From Opitutales bacterium (GTDB lineage: Bacteria > Verrucomicrobiota > Verrucomicrobiia > Opitutales > Opitutaceae), in NCBI GenBank assembly GCA_018700525.1, contig JABITN010000105.1, positions 1 to 64,000 on the forward strand: a stretch of 64,000 nt of DNA. The letters are read 5' to 3'. Under the pieces are notes generated by a model. The model was not told the origin of the DNA, did not search any database, and worked only from the letters and a program-made list of their open reading frames with translations. Made by a program: the position numbers and the translations under genes. Positions 54,303-63,858 of this stretch are shown here, in pieces; position 1 is the first letter of the stretch; every line of letters starts with the position of its first letter.

Positions 54303-55286
54303 CTAGGCTAACTCACCCGCTTTCCTAAAACTTTCGATAATCGAATTCGCAACCTTGATACCCGAAAGATAAGCCCCTTCAACTCTAGCGGCAACGTAAC
54401 CGTCCCCCGCATGCCACAGGGGCTCATTCTCGCTTTTTAAAAACGCCGCGCTCAGTCCATGTTCCTTTCGCTTGGCAAAGCGCCACTTTTGTAGGGACAT
54501 GTCCACTACCTTTAACTTATCTTGAAAAGGCAAAGCACCCAACAATGCAGTGGAGATCGAATCAGCAGGCTCTCCAAAATATTTTTCCGCAAACTCCGAT
54601 CCCGATTGAATCACAATACCAGGACGCCCTGTAGTACCCTTGATCGATGTCTCCGTTATGGTCGCAATAGGCTCCCCTGGCTCGCCTTTGATCAATCCCG
54701 AATCCGAGAGATTTAGTTCGGACTCGAGAAGTAACATCAACGAGATGCACTTTTCGTACTCGATTGTCTTAAGGGTATCGAGAAAGTCAGCACCAAACGT
54801 TTCTTCGCCCGACTCAAGAAGAGCTACTGCTTGCGGTGCCGGGGTCGCTAGAAGCAGTCGCTCGCATTCGAACGAATCCTTCTCCGAGCGAACCGTCCAC
54901 ACGCCGTTTGCAAATCTAATTGAATCCACCTTCTGCTCACGCCTCACGTCGAGCCCTGCCGCAAGCTGCTTGGCCATTGAATTCATCGCTCCCACTCCAC
55001 GGTACCGGACGTGACCAGACTCTTCGAACCAACTCTGAGCGATACCGTTTGCGATCCATTGCTCAACCTCTTTTTCGAATGACTTTTTGCGAGTAGTAAA
55101 AAACTGGGCCCCGTGGTCAAAAGACTCCCCATCTAATCGTCTAGTTGCCAGCCGACCGCCTATCCCCCGGCTCTTTTCGAGAATGCAAACCGAAACTCCC
55201 GCTTCGACTAGCTTCCTCGCCGCTGCGATTCCTCCAAGACCAGCGCCGACCACCAAACAATCAAACTTCAGAGCAGATAAAACCAT
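54303..55286 (-). CDS. FAD-dependent NAD(P)/amine oxidoreductase (renalase-like)
   Basis: DCLVVGAGLGGIAAARKLVEAGVSVCILEKSRGIGGRLATRRLDGESFDHGAQFFTTR. Confidence 0.9.
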   Translation of the reverse strand: MVLSALKFDCLVVGAGLGGIAAARKLVEAGVSVCILEKSRGIGGRLATRRLDGESFDHGAQFFTTRKKSFEKEVEQWIANGIAQSWFEESGHVRYRGVGAMNSMAKQLAAGLDVRREQKVDSIRFANGVWTVRSEKDSFECERLLLATPAPQAVALLESGEETFGADFLDTLKTIEYEKCISLMLLLESELNLSDSGLIKGEPGEPIATITETSIKGTTGRPGIVIQSGSEFAEKYFGEPADSISTALLGALPFQDKLKVVDMSLQKWRFAKRKEHGLSAAFLKSENEPLWHAGDGYVAARVEGAYLSGIKVANSIIESFRKAGELA

Positions 55287-55324
55287 CTCTTACTTTTTCT
55301 TAAATTACTCTAATTGACAATTAT

Positions 55325-55357
55325 TGAACATTAATTGAACGGCCAAAATACTGTTCA
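55325..55357. promoter_or_regulatory. TGAAC-box cluster (11-bp spaced direct repeats + inverted copy)
   Basis: TGAACA at 55325, TGAACG at 55336 (11-bp period), TGTTCA at 55352; divergent promoter of FAD oxidoreductase and SOUL gene. Confidence 0.5.
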
Positions 55358-55483
55358 AAAATTATTCATACATCGAAGATCCTTTCAACCCCGCTCTAAT
55401 TCTGTAAAGTTTTGTTTTAACTCCAACTCCGCCACCCGATGGCACCTTTAAACAACTAACTAAACGCCCGCTAAAACCACTAC

Positions 55484-56035
55484 ATGAAACGCTCTCTCAC
55501 CTTTACTGTGCTAATCCTCGGGTTCGGACTAACTTTCCTAATGACCACAACAATGGCAAGCGAAGCATTTGAAAAGACCCCATCAGGATCAATAGAAATC
55601 AAGGAACTCCCGGCAGGGAGGCTTTTGGAATCGAAGAGCGAAGGAGACTATTTCGAAGGATCCAATCAGCTTTTCAGACCCCTCTTTTCCTACATTCAAA
55701 AAAACGGAATATCTATGACAACTCCTGTCGAAGTGCAAATCGCGCCAGGGAAAATGTATTTCTGGGTAGCCGAGGATCAAAAGGAGAAAGCGACAAATGG
55801 AAATGATCGCGTGACCGTGGTCGATGTCCCTAAACGAAAAGTAGCGTCGATAGGCTCCCGAGGCTCCTACAGCAAGTCAAACTACGACCAAGCCAAATCG
55901 AAGCTCCTGGAATGGGTTGAATCAAACGATTCAATCATTTTAGCTGGGGAACCTTACGCGGTCTATTGGAGCGGACCCTTCACTCCTTGGTTCCTCAAGT
56001 CTTTCGAAGTTCACGTTCTCGTCTCGTCGGATTAA
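55484..56035 (+). CDS. SOUL family heme-binding protein
   Basis: IEIKELPAGRLLESKSEGDYFEGSNQLFRPLFSYIQKNGISMTTPVEVQ...VASIGSRGSYSKSNYDQAKSKLLEW. Confidence 0.88.
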   Translation: MKRSLTFTVLILGFGLTFLMTTTMASEAFEKTPSGSIEIKELPAGRLLESKSEGDYFEGSNQLFRPLFSYIQKNGISMTTPVEVQIAPGKMYFWVAEDQKEKATNGNDRVTVVDVPKRKVASIGSRGSYSKSNYDQAKSKLLEWVESNDSIILAGEPYAVYWSGPFTPWFLKSFEVHVLVSSD

Positions 56036-56289
56036 ACGTCTTTCACCAGCCCTTCCCCCGCCCTAACTCTCTAGCTCGGATACGCCGACGTTAATCCGCC
56101 ACTCCTTTTTGTCAGAGGACGCATTTCATAAACGTTAGCATATGTAAGAGATTGTCCGAACATTTAGTAACGCTGCTCGATGCTACAGCCGCCAATAAAC
56201 AACAACTCCGAGCCCGTGGCAGTGGCCCATGGCACTTACTCACGACGTTCGCTTCAAACGATCAGTACTGCTGGATCGACAACCTAATC

Positions 56290-56790
56290 CTAAATGGGCC
56301 GCAGATTAAAAGGCGATTGAGGGCTGAGCCAGATCGAGAAATAAATTCCCTGAAAATCATCGCCGTCAATCGTGATGAGTTCCTTGTCATTCAGGCTCAG
56401 CGTCGTTCCTTTTTCGGGATAATAGCGTAACGTATAGCAATCTCCCGAGCCGACTTCACGATAGGCCGCATTGAGCGCCTCCATTCTAAGAGAAACTGTT
56501 TCTAATACCGTTTCCTCGTATAAATTGCGAAGAATTTTTTCAGCCGCTTGAATCAGTTGTTCTTGGCTAATCTTTCGCGAGTAAGTGAATTCCAATGACT
56601 TTGGGAAATTGCCCAATGGATCGCTTTCCCGATTTATGGAGTACGTAGAGAATGTAAGGTCGAATACATGAAAAAGTCCAAAATGCTTATAACTCGTTCG
56701 CGCATTGGGTTCGAAATCCGTCAAGCGAGTGCTCGCGATTCCAAGGAACGTAAGACAGCATATTGCATAAAGAATCGCAGATCGTCGCAT
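56290..56790 (-). CDS. Chalcone isomerase-like domain protein
   Basis: FPKSLEFTYSRKISQEQLIQAAEKIL...GDCYTLRYYPEKGTTLSLNDKELITIDGDDFQGIYFSIWLSPQSPFN. Confidence 0.72.
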   Translation of the reverse strand: MRRSAILYAICCLTFLGIASTRLTDFEPNARTSYKHFGLFHVFDLTFSTYSINRESDPLGNFPKSLEFTYSRKISQEQLIQAAEKILRNLYEETVLETVSLRMEALNAAYREVGSGDCYTLRYYPEKGTTLSLNDKELITIDGDDFQGIYFSIWLSPQSPFNLRPI

Positions 56791-56800
56791 CGAATGTCGA

Positions 56801-57526
56801 TTAACGGGGAGTAAGAACGCGCATTTTGCTCAATGTCCAGATTACCGGATAGGCGAGATCGAGCTCGTACCAACGTGTAGCGAAATTGAGGCGGTTAGGG
56901 TATTTATGGTGATTGTTCTGGAAAGTCTCTCCAACGAAAAGCACATCCCAAATGAAGGTATTGCGCGATTGATCGTTAATCGCGTAATTTCGATATCCGT
57001 ATTTGTGGCCGCACCAATTCACGAAAGCTCCATGAATCGGACCCATCAGAAAATGAATGGGAAGTAATAAGTACCACCACAGGCTCGGCGCGAAAGCCAC
57101 GTACACTGACGTGTAAGCGACGCAAAACATCAGTCGAACGAAATGATTATTACCTAGCCGATCGACAACGCCCCAAGTTGGCAGTCCTTCGATGTAGGGA
57201 GAACTCGATCGCCGTTTGCCGCCCTTGAACTCCATGTAGACTCGAGCAGTGCTAACCATCATCGCAACAACATCCTTAAAAAAATGCGGCGAGTGAGGAT
57301 CCTCTTTCGTGTCGCTATGTTTGTGATGCTCGAGATGGAGCTGAGCGTAGGACTTGGGATGCAAAAAAGACGAGCCCTGCGTGACAAACGTACCCAGGTA
57401 GAAAAATCTCTCCCAGAAAACACTCATCGTAAACATTCGATGAGCCATATACCGGTGCAAGAAAAAGCTTTGGGCAAAGACACTGGCGTACCAATGGATG
57501 AAGAGAAAGCTAATGATTATTAACAT
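56801..57526 (-). CDS. Fatty acid (acyl-lipid/acyl-CoA) desaturase
   Basis: His boxes HRYMAHR, HLEHHKHSD, NNHHKYP. Confidence 0.9.
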   Translation of the reverse strand: MLIIISFLFIHWYASVFAQSFFLHRYMAHRMFTMSVFWERFFYLGTFVTQGSSFLHPKSYAQLHLEHHKHSDTKEDPHSPHFFKDVVAMMVSTARVYMEFKGGKRRSSSPYIEGLPTWGVVDRLGNNHFVRLMFCVAYTSVYVAFAPSLWWYLLLPIHFLMGPIHGAFVNWCGHKYGYRNYAINDQSRNTFIWDVLFVGETFQNNHHKYPNRLNFATRWYELDLAYPVIWTLSKMRVLTPR

Positions 57527-57537
57527 CTATTAAAACA

Positions 57538-58563
57538 CTACGGGTTAATCTTTTTGCCTAGGATGTAATGAGAGACACCCCACTCCGATCCGTTTTTGTA
57601 TCCAAACAATTCGGCGCAAGCGATAAAAAAAAGGCGCCAGCGCCACATCCATCGATTGGCATTCTCCGCGCCGTAGGTCTTTTCGAACAAGGTATGAATT
57701 TCATCCTGATGGCGATTCATGTTATCGAGCCAAGCGTCGGATGTTTTCTGATAGTGCGTGCCATCGAGCTGCCATGACTCTTGAAGCTTGAGATGCGTAT
57801 CGAAACTGGGAAGCAGAGCGTGGGAGGGCATAATACCTCCTGTGAAAAAATGCCTCGCCATCCACTCGCTGGGATTATCCGCCTCGTAGGCATAGGCGTA
57901 TTTTCGGTGAGAGAATACGTGGACAAACATTTTGCAATCATCCTGCATCCATGAAGCGATACGAGCGAAGAGGCTCTCGTAATTGCGCACGTGCTCGAGC
58001 ATTTCAACGGATACGATTCGGTCGAATTGCGCTTTCGGATCAAATTCGTTGATGTCGCAGGTTACAACCTTCAGATTCTTAATTCCGCGCCGCGAGGCTT
58101 CTTCGCGAATAAAGGTCGCTTGCGTATGGGAATTCGATACCGCGAGGAAAGTTGAGCTCGGATGGCGAGGAGCCGCCCAGAGGGAAAAGGACCCCCAACC
58201 ACACCCGAGATCGAGGACGGATTGTCCGTCGGACAATTCAACGCGTTCCTCAATCAATTTAAGAGCTGCCGCTTCAGCTTCGGCAAGCGACTTACAACCT
58301 TCGGGCCAGTAGGCGGAACTGTATTTAAGATGTGGCCCCAGAGCGAGTTTGTAGAATGCAGTAGGTACTTCGTAGTGCTGCTCGTTTGCGGCCTCCGTAT
58401 CTTGTGCAATCTGACTTGATGCGAGACTTCGAGCAAAACGGTCCCGTTCCTCGGGAGATTTCGATTTCTCGATAACTAATTTTTGTCCAACGCGTTGACG
58501 TATTCCAAAACGCAGCAACCAGTATGGCAGAAAGCCGTTTTCGGCGAGTGATATAGGATTCAT
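57538..58563 (-). CDS. SAM-dependent methyltransferase, CFA-synthase family (short form)
   Basis: HYEVPTAFYKLALGPHLKYSSAYW, VLDLGCGWGSFSLWAA, ERIVSVEMLEHV-type segment (DRIVSVEMLEHVRNYESL). Confidence 0.9.
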   Translation of the reverse strand: MNPISLAENGFLPYWLLRFGIRQRVGQKLVIEKSKSPEERDRFARSLASSQIAQDTEAANEQHYEVPTAFYKLALGPHLKYSSAYWPEGCKSLAEAEAAALKLIEERVELSDGQSVLDLGCGWGSFSLWAAPRHPSSTFLAVSNSHTQATFIREEASRRGIKNLKVVTCDINEFDPKAQFDRIVSVEMLEHVRNYESLFARIASWMQDDCKMFVHVFSHRKYAYAYEADNPSEWMARHFFTGGIMPSHALLPSFDTHLKLQESWQLDGTHYQKTSDAWLDNMNRHQDEIHTLFEKTYGAENANRWMWRWRLFFIACAELFGYKNGSEWGVSHYILGKKINP

Positions 58564-58617
58564 AAGAATGTACGGATTTTAAATTAAGGATACTGTTTTT
58601 CAGGCTCCTCGGGGAAA

Positions 58618-58725
58618 CTAAGGAAAGAAGCTGTTGGTTTCTCGTTGATAGGCTCGATAGTCGTCAAAGCAATTGGAGATTGCTTGAACATCGATGGGCG
58701 GGATCCCAATTCTTTTTGGGTTCAT
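58618..58725 (-). pseudogene. Possible C-terminal remnant of a DUF1295-like gene
   Basis: Complement frame ...MNPKRIGIPPIDVQAISNCFDDYRAYQRETNSFFP*; the YxxYQRxTxxFxP ending resembles DUF1295 C-termini. Weak evidence. Confidence 0.25.
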
Positions 58726-58747
58726 ACAAAGAAATGAAACAGCGGTT

Positions 58748-60025
58748 TCATAAAGCAGTAAGAGATCTGAATAACTGCGGCGAGAGAGTTTCTTCACGAT
58801 GCGCCGACTCGTAAGAATAGGCTGTTTCGTCCGCTCTACCTAAAATGAGCTGGCATACGTTGACGTGCCGCTCCAGGAAGCCGGCTTCGCAATAGGCCAA
58901 ATAGTATTCCCACTTTCGCTTGAACGCGTCATCGAATCCTTGTCGGCTAATTTTATCCCAGCACTTCAGAAATTGGATTCTCCATTCCCGCAGCGTTCTC
59001 GCATAATGAACGCCGAAACTCTCCATATGGTAGGTTTCCAACTGACCGTGAGTTTCTGCGTTCTCGATAAGTGCTCGAGGGGACGGCAGATGGGACCCAG
59101 GGAAAATGTGCTTCTGTATCCAATCAACTCGTTTACTATAGTCTTCGTATAGTGGGTTTGGACAGGTAATGACTTGAACACCGGCCAAGCCATCGGGTTC
59201 AAGCAAGTTTTCCACTTGCTGAAAGTACGTCCCCAGAAATTCCTTACCCACCGCCTCAAGCATTTCTATGGAAGCAATTCTATCGAATTTTCCTTCGAGC
59301 TTTCGATAGTCGGTCATTGTGACATGGATGCGCTCTTGCAACCCAGCTGCGTTAACCCGTCGAGTGGCTTCGCGGTACTGCTCTTTCGAAATCGTTGTGG
59401 ACGTAACACAGCAGTTATAATTCTTCGCTGCATGAATGGCGAACCCTCCCCATCCACAGCCTATCTCTAACACGTGATGCAGTGAATTGATCCCTAGTTT
59501 GCGGCACAGACGATCATACTTTTCCTCTTGAGCCTTTTCGAGAGAATCGTTCGGACTAGTAAAATAAGCGGAGGAGTAGGTCATACTGGGATCGAGAAAA
59601 GTAGCATAGAACGTATTCCCCAAATCGTAATGAGCGTGAATATTCTCCCGACTTCCCGCAATTGTGTTTCGGTTCTTGAAGTGAAGAAACGTATCCAAAA
59701 ATTGATTTCCTTTTCGAGCCAAGCCAGCGAGCATCGGACTGATTTTCGGGGCAATAAAGGGACTGTTTACGAGTAACCACTGGAGAATACCCGTTAGGTC
59801 ATTCGAACGCCAGAAATCGCGCTGGTAAGCCTCTCCTAAACCAATACCTCCTTTGAGTACAATCTCTCTGAAGAACGCTTTGTCTTTAACCTGGAGCTCG
59901 AGCGTGTGAGCTTTGCTTGATTGGCCGAAAACCAGGGACGAGCCATCCGGTAAACGAACGGTTGCGCCTCCAATTTGCGCCTTCTCTAGGTTTTTTAGAA
60001 CAATACTCTGGTACGAAAATTTCAT
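58748..60025 (-). CDS. Cyclopropane-fatty-acyl-phospholipid synthase family protein
   Basis: HYDLGNTFYATFLDPSMTYSSAYF, VLEIGCGWGGFAIHAA, ASIEMLEAVGKEFLGTYFQQVENLL, WIQKHIFPGSHLPS. Confidence 0.93.
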   Translation of the reverse strand: MKFSYQSIVLKNLEKAQIGGATVRLPDGSSLVFGQSSKAHTLELQVKDKAFFREIVLKGGIGLGEAYQRDFWRSNDLTGILQWLLVNSPFIAPKISPMLAGLARKGNQFLDTFLHFKNRNTIAGSRENIHAHYDLGNTFYATFLDPSMTYSSAYFTSPNDSLEKAQEEKYDRLCRKLGINSLHHVLEIGCGWGGFAIHAAKNYNCCVTSTTISKEQYREATRRVNAAGLQERIHVTMTDYRKLEGKFDRIASIEMLEAVGKEFLGTYFQQVENLLEPDGLAGVQVITCPNPLYEDYSKRVDWIQKHIFPGSHLPSPRALIENAETHGQLETYHMESFGVHYARTLREWRIQFLKCWDKISRQGFDDAFKRKWEYYLAYCEAGFLERHVNVCQLILGRADETAYSYESAHREETLSPQLFRSLTAL

Positions 60026-60029
60026 AATT

Positions 60030-60836
60030 TCAATATATGGGATGATTATGATTTACGATATAGGGCCTTACACCCGTCTGCTGATGTGGATTCGCCGCTT
60101 TGGGGCGAGCGCGAATGCCTTTTAAATAAAGGACAAATGCCTGCCAATGAATCGCGAATACGATGTTCAGAGTGATCAAAGGAAAACGAATAGCATAGAG
60201 TGCTAGGTTCCAGTCTGTTAGTCCCGCACGATTCCCCGATAAGGCTGTGCGAAAGTAGGTCTTCCCCTCTTTCGATTGATTAATACTTAAGCGCAGGCAT
60301 TCTTGTGGAGCACTGAGTCGAAAATGAAACGACGTATCCAAGTCGCTAAAAGGTGACACATAGAACTCTTTCTTTTGAACGGCTTGAGAGATTCCCTTTG
60401 AATCGGAGGGCAGCAGAAACATCTTTTGCTCATTAAATGTGTTTCCAACTTCAGCGATTGAGCAGATCGATTCGCCATCCCTATTGGATACAAAATAGAA
60501 AGATACGGGATTGAACACATGCCCCCAGGTTCTGAGATGCGTCAGCAGGTGAATTTTGCCAATTTCATCATGGAGGCCCTTCTCTTTCAAAAATGCTTCG
60601 ATGCTCCCACGAATTGGAAGACTCCTAACCTGATAATGATCGGAGTCGTGGAAAGAATAGGGAGCAAATCGATTGTGCCCCAAAAGACGCTTGGATTTAT
60701 CCAGCATTTCCAGTTCGTCGAGATCCAAGTAAAACATAAAGATACTGTACTTGAAGCTGTGTTTCCGTGGTGAGCTCCGGCGGTGGGCGATGCTGCATTT
60801 ATAAAGGCAGGAATTCACGTTTACCCCCTTTCTCAT
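60030..60836 (-). CDS. DUF1365 family protein
   Basis: LYKCSIAHRRSSPRKHSFKYSIFMFYLDLDEL, HLLTHLRTWGHVFNPVSFYFVSNRDGE, NTFNEQKMFLLP. Confidence 0.92.
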   Translation of the reverse strand: MRKGVNVNSCLYKCSIAHRRSSPRKHSFKYSIFMFYLDLDELEMLDKSKRLLGHNRFAPYSFHDSDHYQVRSLPIRGSIEAFLKEKGLHDEIGKIHLLTHLRTWGHVFNPVSFYFVSNRDGESICSIAEVGNTFNEQKMFLLPSDSKGISQAVQKKEFYVSPFSDLDTSFHFRLSAPQECLRLSINQSKEGKTYFRTALSGNRAGLTDWNLALYAIRFPLITLNIVFAIHWQAFVLYLKGIRARPKAANPHQQTGVRPYIVNHNHPIY

Positions 60837-62091
60837 CGATCAACTCATCCACCAGTTTTAGGGAAGACCAAAGGGCGTCTTCATGAAAACCATCGCGAAA
60901 ATAGCTGCCGCAAAACCGAATGCGACTGTTCGTGTTGAGCCCAGGCAATCTATCCTTCGCACGTGTAGCAGCTTCGTCAAAGAGTGGATGCTCGTAAGTG
61001 GTTGAAAAACGTATTTTTTCGCGGTCAATTTCACCGTCGTAGTCGATGCTCACAAAATAATCTACGTCTGTTTCCAAATTCTGGAGACTGTTCATCCAAT
61101 AGTGCGTGGATGATTTCGAATTTCCAGTCGAATCCAAAGAGTGAAGTACGTTCCACGATGCCCATGCTTTCTTACTTCGCGGCATTACCGAATCACAGGT
61201 ATGCAGAACCGCCTTATTGCGATTGTACTTGAAGGCCGAAAGAGCGCTTTTCTGCGCAGAACTGGGGTCCCCTAAAAGAGCGAGAGCGTGATTGGCATGC
61301 GTTGCCACGATTATATAGTCATAGGTTTGTTTCTGCCCGCACTCATCGCAATAGTATGCCGTATCATTATCTTGATGGATACTGGCGATCGATTGACTCA
61401 GCAACGCCTCGTTTGGCAGGCGAGCCAAAAGCTTCTGCTTGTATTGCTCACTCCCGCTTTCGACGGTTTTCCACTGTAATTGAGTGCCAATGCCAAGCAT
61501 CCTGTGGTTTTGCATAAACTGGAGCAATGGCAGGGCTGGAAAATTCAGGATGCCTTCAGGGGGCGTTGACCATATCGCACCTGCCATCGGAAGGATGAAA
61601 TCGTTCATCACCGATCGACTTAAAGAATAATCCTTTGCGAACTCAGCCATTGTATACCGAGGCTCGGGGCCTCGAAGTATCAGTTCATCGGCTGCCTTAA
61701 AGAATTTGGTTATCTCACTGTAGAGATTCCAGTGCCGGAGGTTTACTAAGTTTCTTTTCTGAGCGAAAAACCCAGCGAATCCAGTGGATGAATACTCCAA
61801 ACGAGTATCGATATTCCGAACTCCGAATGACATTGATGTATTGTAACTGATCACTCCCAATTCACTGAACAGACGTACCAAATTGGGGTATGTCGTTTCG
61901 TTGAAGACCATAAAACCAGTGTCAATCGGAATACTTCTGTCCGACTCATGAACGTTCACCGTATTCGTATGCCCACCGGCGTAGCTATTTTTTTCTATAA
62001 GCGTAACATCAAATTGGTTACGTAGATAGTAAGCTGCGGCCATTCCAGCAATACCGGAGCCAATAACTGCGACGCTCTCCTTCATTCTCAA
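60799..62091 (-). CDS. NAD(P)/FAD-dependent oxidoreductase (amine-oxidase family)
   Basis: VAVIGSGIAGMAAAYYLRNQFDVTLIEKNSYAGGHTNTVNV, PIDTGFMVFNETTYPNLVRLF, RIRFCGSYFRDGFHEDAL. Confidence 0.93.
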   Translation of the reverse strand: MRMKESVAVIGSGIAGMAAAYYLRNQFDVTLIEKNSYAGGHTNTVNVHESDRSIPIDTGFMVFNETTYPNLVRLFSELGVISYNTSMSFGVRNIDTRLEYSSTGFAGFFAQKRNLVNLRHWNLYSEITKFFKAADELILRGPEPRYTMAEFAKDYSLSRSVMNDFILPMAGAIWSTPPEGILNFPALPLLQFMQNHRMLGIGTQLQWKTVESGSEQYKQKLLARLPNEALLSQSIASIHQDNDTAYYCDECGQKQTYDYIIVATHANHALALLGDPSSAQKSALSAFKYNRNKAVLHTCDSVMPRSKKAWASWNVLHSLDSTGNSKSSTHYWMNSLQNLETDVDYFVSIDYDGEIDREKIRFSTTYEHPLFDEAATRAKDRLPGLNTNSRIRFCGSYFRDGFHEDALWSSLKLVDELIDEKGGKREFLPL

Positions 62092-63026
62092 TCAGAGGGT
62101 ACAACCAAATTGTCTTTCTCGCACAAATACAAAAGGGCATTCTCAACAATCGATCGAGCTTTAGCTATTTCCGAACCTAAGTAGGTGTGCACGTCGGCAT
62201 CCGCAGGAGATTCAATTTCGCAACGGCGGCAATAGTTCTCGAATGAGGCGAGACTGGCTACCAGCGCGGAAATGTGATGAGGACACTCGCACCTTATGTT
62301 GGGATTCGACGTTGCGATCGTAGCAAGTTGCTTGTCCGAGAACACTCGAGGAACAGACGGGATCCCGTTATCATCCGGCCCGTCCATCGGCGCGTTTTGG
62401 TGAGTTGCATTCACCATGGCCGCATGTAGGTAATGCGTGAGCAATTCTGTGGAGCAAGGCATACGAATGAGAAAATAGCCCGAAACGGAAAACTGCTGTA
62501 TAAGCTCGCGTGGAGCATAGTCATACAGAATGGCGATCGGCGTATTTGGGTTTTCGTGGCTGACTATCGTCACCGTTCTTCTGCTTTCCGCAATTGGCCC
62601 GTCCACAGCAATCACGATTATATCGGGGGCTCCCTCTTTCTCTGATACATATTTGAACTGAGCAGGGAGAATTGAAACCCAATCTTTCGCTCGCTCGCCG
62701 AATGGTAAAATACGGACAACCGTAGTGCGGGCCGACGACGCTTCAGTTTGGTTTGTTTGGTATTCGAGCAATCTGCTGCGTAATTCACCCAAACTAAGGG
62801 TCGCTATAGAACTGATAGCGTCGCCCATCCCTGTAAGCTTTTTCATAAGAGCAAGAATCTCTACCTGCTCTTGCGAGTACCGTCTTCTTCCTGTCGCAGA
62901 GCGGCTACTGGCTTGGATGAAATTTCTGCGCTCCCAAGTACGAAGCGTGTTCGCTGAAAGTCCCGTTATTTTCGATACTGCACCCACTTCAAAGTAGGGC
63001 AATTCTGTATTTTCAGATATGGTCAT
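62088..63026 (-). CDS. MerR family transcriptional regulator, LitR/CarH-like architecture without cobalamin-binding motif
   Basis: FEVGAVSKITGLSANTLRTWERRNFIQASSRSATGRRRYSQEQVEILALMKKL HTH; central Rossmann-like region (PDIIVIAVDGPIAESRRTVTIVSHENPNTPIAILYDYAP); C-terminal CECPHH domain. Confidence 0.88.
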   Translation of the reverse strand: MTISENTELPYFEVGAVSKITGLSANTLRTWERRNFIQASSRSATGRRRYSQEQVEILALMKKLTGMGDAISSIATLSLGELRSRLLEYQTNQTEASSARTTVVRILPFGERAKDWVSILPAQFKYVSEKEGAPDIIVIAVDGPIAESRRTVTIVSHENPNTPIAILYDYAPRELIQQFSVSGYFLIRMPCSTELLTHYLHAAMVNATHQNAPMDGPDDNGIPSVPRVFSDKQLATIATSNPNIRCECPHHISALVASLASFENYCRRCEIESPADADVHTYLGSEIAKARSIVENALLYLCEKDNLVVPSD

Positions 63027-63070
63027 TTGACTTACTTAACTTTAACAATATTGGTGAATTTCGACCCGCG

Positions 63071-63122
63071 TGAACAATAAAAGAAGCAGTTCAAAACCAT
63101 ATTATTGTTCATAAACTGTTCA
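63071..63122. promoter_or_regulatory. TGAACA/TGTTCA box array upstream of MerR gene
   Basis: TGAACA 63071, AGTTCA 63088, TGTTCA 63106, TGTTCA 63117 (last two at 11-bp period); further TGAACA 63241 and TGAACC 63262 toward the lipocalin. Confidence 0.5.
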
Positions 63123-63312
63123 ATAGTTAAAAACTGCCCGTTTTTCACCCAATTGCGGACAACTCTTAAAAGACAAACCGTGAGTAGGTTACAAAATTGC
63201 GGCTTCGACTGTCGATCCATTATAGACATTGGACAATCGATGAACAATTACGAATCGCTCATGAACCAATTCGCTTATTGAGTAAAATTTCAGATTGGCC
63301 ATAGTCAATCCT

Positions 63313-63858
63313 ATGAAAAGGATGTATAAGCCCCTTGTATTAATTACCGGACTACTCATTGGACTAACTGCATGCCGATCCAATGTTGATATCGCTGGTC
63401 CCAATCAAAAGCTCGCGGATAGCGTGGATTTGAAGCGCTTTCTCGGCAAGTGGTACGTTCACGGTTTCACCCCCACGTTTCTCGACAAGAACGCTGTGAA
63501 TGCTACGGAGACCTACAAACTGGGAGAGGATGGAAAGATAAACACCACTTACGCTTTTCGAAAACACGAGCCAGGCGGCAAGCAAAAGACCTACAAGCCC
63601 GTTGGCTGGGTTCATGACAAGAGGACCTCTGCGGAATGGAGAATGCGGTTTTTTGGACTCTTTACAGCTCCGTACTACATCCTCTACGTTGACGAAAACT
63701 ACGAAACGACCGTCGTAGGACATCCTAAGAAAGAGCTAGCGTGGATTATGTCACGCTCCCCCCAAGTGGAATCGGACACTTACAACCGGCTGCTAGACGA
63801 ATTGAAAAACCGAGATTACAAGCTGGAACGTTTCCGACGTATGCAGCAAGAATGGTGA
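63313..63858 (+). CDS. Lipocalin family lipoprotein (Blc-like)
   Basis: Lipobox LIGLTAC; VDLKRFLGKWYVHGFTPTFLDKNAVNATETY, LYVDENYETTVVGHPKKELAWIMSRSPQ; start set to MKRMYKPL. Confidence 0.88.
   Translation: MKRMYKPLVLITGLLIGLTACRSNVDIAGPNQKLADSVDLKRFLGKWYVHGFTPTFLDKNAVNATETYKLGEDGKINTTYAFRKHEPGGKQKTYKPVGWVHDKRTSAEWRMRFFGLFTAPYYILYVDENYETTVVGHPKKELAWIMSRSPQVESDTYNRLLDELKNRDYKLERFRRMQQEW

Follow-up and report, generated by a model that had tools for sequence, protein, structure and literature searches.

CarH-type regulators, described from Thermus thermophilus, Bacillus megaterium and Myxococcales, carry a B12-binding domain, control carotenoid genes and bind tandem 11-bp repeats following the rule nnnnTnnACAn (PMC9304148). 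CarA of Myxococcus xanthus, a paralogue of CarH that is relieved by the antirepressor CarS (PMC9304148), acts on a CarH-type operator independently of B12. The class II LitR proteins PmlR2 and PplR of Pseudomonas are LitR/CarH-type MerR regulators that do not use B12 and are controlled by a short LOV protein; their sites read TGTACA-N12-TGTACA (18-bp spacing) and their neighbours include photolyase, SDR, FAD oxidoreductase and UfaM genes (PMC9758184). Class III LitR of Burkholderia multivorans is devoid of a B12 domain and needs another chromophore (PMC9758184, PMC6739363). In Vibrio cholerae, the MerR protein VCA0056 is co-transcribed with a photolyase and tied to the blue-light photo-oxidative response (PMC5241685). 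A paper on photolyase under nitrosative stress was dropped as a precedent, since it concerns ChrR and not a MerR protein.

Here, a 64-kb stretch of DNA of an Opitutales bacterium (contig JABITN010000105.1, positions 1 to 64,000; in the following the window) was analyzed, which contains a MerR gene next to lipid and redox genes (Table 1). We hold it to be quite probable that three repeats in the two divergent promoters, termed O1 to O3, are operators of a CarH-like MerR protein of the non-B12 kind governing a lipid/redox regulon, with a light or photo-oxidative response as the likely context.

Gene content of the cluster

Table 1. Genes and predicted operators of the lipid/redox cluster (positions in the window).
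Feature	Position	Strand	Basis or remark
FADox, FAD-dependent oxidoreductase	54303..55286	-	Pfam; divergent from SOUL
O1, predicted operator, TTGACA-N5-TGAACA-N5-TGAACG (11-bp spacing)	55314..55341	+	Between the divergent FADox and SOUL genes
SOUL haem-binding-family protein	55484..56035	+	Pfam
Chalcone-isomerase-like (Chalcone_3) protein	56290..56790	-	Pfam
Fatty acid desaturase	56801..57526	-	Pfam
CMAS (cyclopropane-fatty-acid-synthase) family methyltransferase 1	57538..58563	-	Pfam
CMAS family methyltransferase 2	58748..60025	-	Pfam
DUF1365 protein (UfaO-type family)	60030..60836	-	Pfam; PMC7380195
FAD amine-oxidase-like protein	60799..62091	-	Pfam; conserved order, operon with MerR
MerR regulator, 312 aa	62088..63026	-	CarH-like HTH, receiver-like middle domain, CxCPxH...C...H C-terminal module
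O2, predicted operator, TGAACA-N5-TGAACA	63106..63122	-	Promoter of the MerR operon; kept in relatives
O3, predicted operator, TGGACA-N5-TGAACA	63230..63246	+	Before the lipocalin gene
Lipocalin (Lipocalin_2)	63295..63858	+	Pfam

Opitutales relatives retain the gene order merR, amine oxidase, DUF1365, CMAS, CMAS, desaturase. Relatives that carry a name are Opitutaceae, Opitutales and Pelagicoccus, which makes this order the most likely source of the window as well. In the furan fatty acid pathway of Rhodobacter, UfaO belongs to the DUF1365 proteins and UfaM acts as a SAM-dependent fatty acyl methylase (PMC7380195). On this precedent, the operon (56801-62091) plausibly makes methylated or furan fatty acids, which would shield membranes from photo-oxidative damage.

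The MerR protein

The genome search gave two MerR_1 matches, of which only one is a stand-alone protein, namely the MerR protein that a sequence-only reading of the window had named as the candidate regulator; the other is, as read from its sequence, a helix-turn-helix (HTH) forming the end of a Fic-like protein. A comparison of the alignment profile with solved structures resulted in CarH as best match (9.5e-17), together with the HTH of CarA (2jml, 8e-14), the similarity being restricted to the HTH region. For 51 homologues, the listed Pfam matches at an E-value of 0.1 include no B12 domain. The proposed CarH/LitR type therefore applies to the HTH, which is closest to CarH and CarA, but not to the sensor, as the B12 domain of a B12-type CarH is listed for none of the 51 homologues (0/51).

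In the profile search, the middle domain is similar to receivers. In the AlphaFold model (pLDDT 87.7), the HTH is accompanied by a middle domain of alpha/beta type and a pair of helices at the C-terminus; the arrangement of these domains is uncertain due to the pTM of 0.49. Apart from the MerR head, a fold search with the full model found nothing that matches well (TM-score to the query 0.2-0.3). At the C-terminus, a CxCPxH-x17-C-x10-H module (residues 246-280, starting with CECPxH) was found that belongs to no Pfam family. Its residues C246, C248, H251, C269 and H280 are invariant in 51/51 homologues, which suggests a metal or thiol-redox site.

Paired boxes in the two divergent promoters

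The two pairs of TGAAC boxes reported by the sequence-only reading, TTGAACATTAATTGAACG (55324-55341, forward strand) and TTGAACAGTTTATGAACA (63106-63123, reverse strand), could be verified, each with a distance of 11 bp, or one helical turn, between the boxes. They are the only matches to TGAAC-N6-TGAAC in the window (2 vs. 0.10 expected), and none of 100 shuffles of the window (0/100) gave two matches. Taken singly, TTGAAC boxes show no enrichment, as the window contains 42 of them and 38.4 would be expected. Further boxes around both pairs had also been described; the box density amounts to 15.2 per kb in the FADox/SOUL promoter and 22.4 per kb in the merR/lipocalin promoter, as against 2.2 per kb for the remaining intergenic regions of the window and 2.7 per kb for those rich in AT, so that the boxes are far denser here than in unrelated intergenic DNA. 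Dinucleotide shuffles per region resulted in P = 0.0056 (FADox/SOUL) and P = 0.0002 (merR/lipocalin) for the number of boxes, and in P = 0.0004-0.0006 and P = 0.0018, respectively, for the 11-bp pair.

Two elements were absent from the sequence-only reading, namely O3 and the TTGACA at 55314, which forms a third in-register box of O1, so that O1 consists of two overlapping 17-mers. Three perfect TnnACA boxes in tandem have no match genome-wide, since G is the last base of the third box of O1. At O2, an additional TGAACT box follows 18 bp on (63088-63093). A sigma-70 scan that placed O2 between TTAACT and AATAAT with an 18-bp spacer was not used, as 0.9 such matches are expected by chance.

A pattern search for TGAAC-N6-TGAAC in the own genome (4.8 Mb) revealed no excess, with 8 matches vs. 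6 for the reversed control pattern. The bare pattern is thus not enriched genome-wide, and its distinctive feature is the placement in these promoters. By the same kind of search, TDRACA-N5-TGAAC was found 15 times (reversed control: 9); four of the 15 lie inside the two promoters and, among the other 11, only two are intergenic.

Conservation of the 11-bp repeat

Upstream of merR, TnnACA pairs at 11 bp were detected in 7 of 19 Opitutales loci and in 12 of 34 other loci, mostly of Gamma- and Betaproteobacteria, whereas none of the other spacings between 6 and 40 is seen in more than three loci. The Poisson tail for the 11-bp peak (3e-8 for Opitutales, 1e-14 for the others) is indicative only, as it ignores shared ancestry, for example that of two near-identical Woeseiaceae loci. 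The exact repeat is absent from the 300 bp before merR in 12/19 Opitutales and 22/34 other loci, and from the 400 bp before the merR orthologues of genomes G022, G066, G009, G010 and G002.

In six of nine relatives with MerR, TGAACA-N5-TGAAC is present exactly once per genome. This single site is located upstream of merR in four of the six: G003 and G007 have it about 100-175 bp from the gene, G005 and G008 500-570 bp from it. For G002 and G010, the sole strict match lies elsewhere. In total, 20 matches were counted over the nine genomes, compared to 4 for the reversed control. The O2 repeat is kept in several relatives (L028/L054, L029/L058, L037/L062 and L038), and L054 also carries TAGACA-N5-TGAACA on the lipocalin-facing side, as with O3.

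Intergenic DNA outside the merR promoters of the Opitutales neighbourhoods (27.9 kb) contains no 11-bp pair of TGAAC or TnnACA. In the Proteobacterial neighbourhoods, the other intergenic regions hold 14 TnnACA pairs at 11 bp, and no other spacing is represented more than three times. The half-sites are mostly TGAACA in Opitutales and often TAGACA or TTGACA in Proteobacteria; the two groups thus share the 11-bp frame but differ in the inner bases of the boxes, which drift. The repeat at MerR promoters is therefore conserved across Opitutales and Proteobacteria, and the computational case for its being an operator is strong.

Reach of the putative regulon

A further site of the own genome, TGAACAATCAATGAACA, is unlinked to the cluster and located between the genes for an MFS_2 transporter and a DUF1295 reductase; in G009, the same gene pair carries TGAACA-N5-TGAAC. 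In front of the DUF1295 gene, an 11-bp repeat was found at -148 to -201 in 6 of the 11 genomes having this gene. Full-length MerR is encoded in 15 genomes, nine of which are shared with DUF1295 (hypergeometric 5e-9, kinship ignored). The divergent MFS_2/DUF1295 pair with its conserved repeat (L240:4146-6702) is co-distributed with MerR. A literature search for DUF1295 in light regulons gave nothing useful. Another intergenic repeat, TGGACAAATATTGAACA (L122:1501), lies about 60 bp upstream of a gene for a TPR protein.

The FADox promoters of G010 and G005 show, by eye, a degenerate three-box in-register equivalent of O1. In G010, G005, G002 and G008, where SOUL is separated from FADox, the SOUL promoter does not contain the repeat. 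The membership of SOUL is therefore weak and forms the weakest link of the regulon. The idea of one regulon thus gains the unlinked DUF1295 locus with the same repeat, but is less well founded for SOUL.

In relatives (L186:1860-5585, L188:2068-10938), FADox is found near photolyase or photolyase-related genes, an SDR gene, a TspO-like gene and SOUL, a set that looks like a light response. Photolyase, SDR and CMAS genes also adjoin members of the MerR family. The own genome has a cluster with a photolyase-related (DPRP) gene (L238:1660-7133), which includes SDR, FAD enzyme, ADP-ribosylglycohydrolase-like and DoxX-like genes. As this cluster is devoid of the repeat, photolyase was rejected as a regulon member in the own genome.

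Comparison with described regulators

An HTH closest to that of class I CarH is present here, as is, by sequence and conservation, its 11-bp operator, whereas its B12-binding domains are not among the listed Pfam matches. Both systems share tandem 11-bp TnnACA operators, which here comprise either two or three boxes, TGAACA being the usual core. The genes predicted to be controlled are lipid and redox genes, in contrast to the carotenoid genes under CarH. Taking the published operator rule (PMC9304148) together with the match found here, operator and HTH would work as in CarH, while the protein is not a B12 photoreceptor. CarA offers a parallel for control without B12 through an operator of this type, but no counterpart of its antirepressor CarS was found here.

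Class II LitR proteins have similar gene neighbours, but differ in the C-terminal domain and in the operator, as the boxes found here are TGAACA at 11 bp with one extra box at 18 bp (O2). Of the regulators known, class III LitR would be the likeliest relative: it shares the absence of a B12 domain, and a Burkholderia cepacia protein belongs to the present family. No obvious light genes were found in the neighbourhood of this Burkholderia cepacia homologue.

Proposed regulation and alternative explanations

MerR would bind the tandem repeats O1, O2 and O3 via its CarH-like HTH; a CarH-like mode of DNA reading is likely. It would autoregulate its operon, comprising merR and the genes for the FAD amine oxidase, DUF1365 protein, two CMAS methyltransferases, desaturase and chalcone-isomerase-like protein, and co-control FADox, the lipocalin and possibly SOUL, as well as one or more unlinked promoters, including that between MFS_2 and DUF1295. 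Membrane-lipid and redox genes would thus probably be controlled together. MerR probably acts as a repressor in the dark or in the absence of stress, and light or photo-oxidative stress may relieve this repression through the C-terminal CxCPxH...C...H module instead of B12. A light signal is plausible in view of the neighbouring genes; like binding, repression and a chromophore or metal, it is inferred.

A narrower regulon, consisting of the own operon, the lipocalin gene and perhaps DUF1295, with the FADox/SOUL repeat as chance or relic, would fit the SOUL promoters of relatives without the repeat and the background of about one TGAAC-N6-TGAAC per 0.6 Mb in the own genome. We consider this rather unlikely, as O1 has three boxes in register forming overlapping 17-mers, degenerate in-register boxes are retained at the FADox promoters of G010 and G005, and the shuffle P-value of this promoter is low (0.0004-0.0006). 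Pure chance clustering in AT-rich divergent promoters is hardly credible; both regions are indeed 64% AT, but the boxes are 7-10 times as dense as in other intergenic DNA of the window, and the 11-bp peak appears in two lineages.

The sequence AAC is present in many ECF -35 elements, so the TGAAC boxes might belong to an ECF sigma factor of the AAC type (the RpoE/ChrR singlet-oxygen kind) instead of MerR. RpoE-ChrR governs similar gene sets in Rhodobacter (PMC7380195) and Vibrio (PMC5241685). This is very improbable because tandem repeats of 11 bp are not characteristic of ECF promoters, no ECF gene is located in the cluster, and the Proteobacterial half-site shifts to TAGACA-like forms while the 11-bp TnnACA frame stays beside the same regulator family. 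MerR could also be a light-blind repressor relieved by a separate short LOV photoreceptor, for which PmlR2 with its lack of B12 sensing is the precedent (PMC9758184). We regard this as unlikely: the canonical LOV motif GRNCRFLQ was not found at one mismatch in the own genome or most relatives, although variants could be missed; PmlR2 sites are spaced by 18 bp, a distance also seen for the extra box at O2; and PmlR2 retains a B12-binding_2-like domain that the present family is without.

Implications

Somewhat speculatively, the operators and the CarH-like MerR may represent a widespread, undescribed branch in which the DNA-binding head and 11-bp code of CarH are retained and the B12 sensor is exchanged for a receiver-like domain plus a CxCPxH-x17-C-x10-H metal/redox centre. 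This centre would sense light or singlet oxygen, and in Verrucomicrobiota and Proteobacteria the branch would control the remodelling of membrane fatty acids. The analysis also supplies a short list of precise sites and residues for tests. If the proposed regulation is true, the CarH operator code extends to a regulator without B12, and the DNA-reading head and the sensor of the CarH family evolve independently. It would furthermore define a Verrucomicrobiota regulon for lipid methylation and desaturation, including DUF1365, lipocalin, FAD enzymes and DUF1295.
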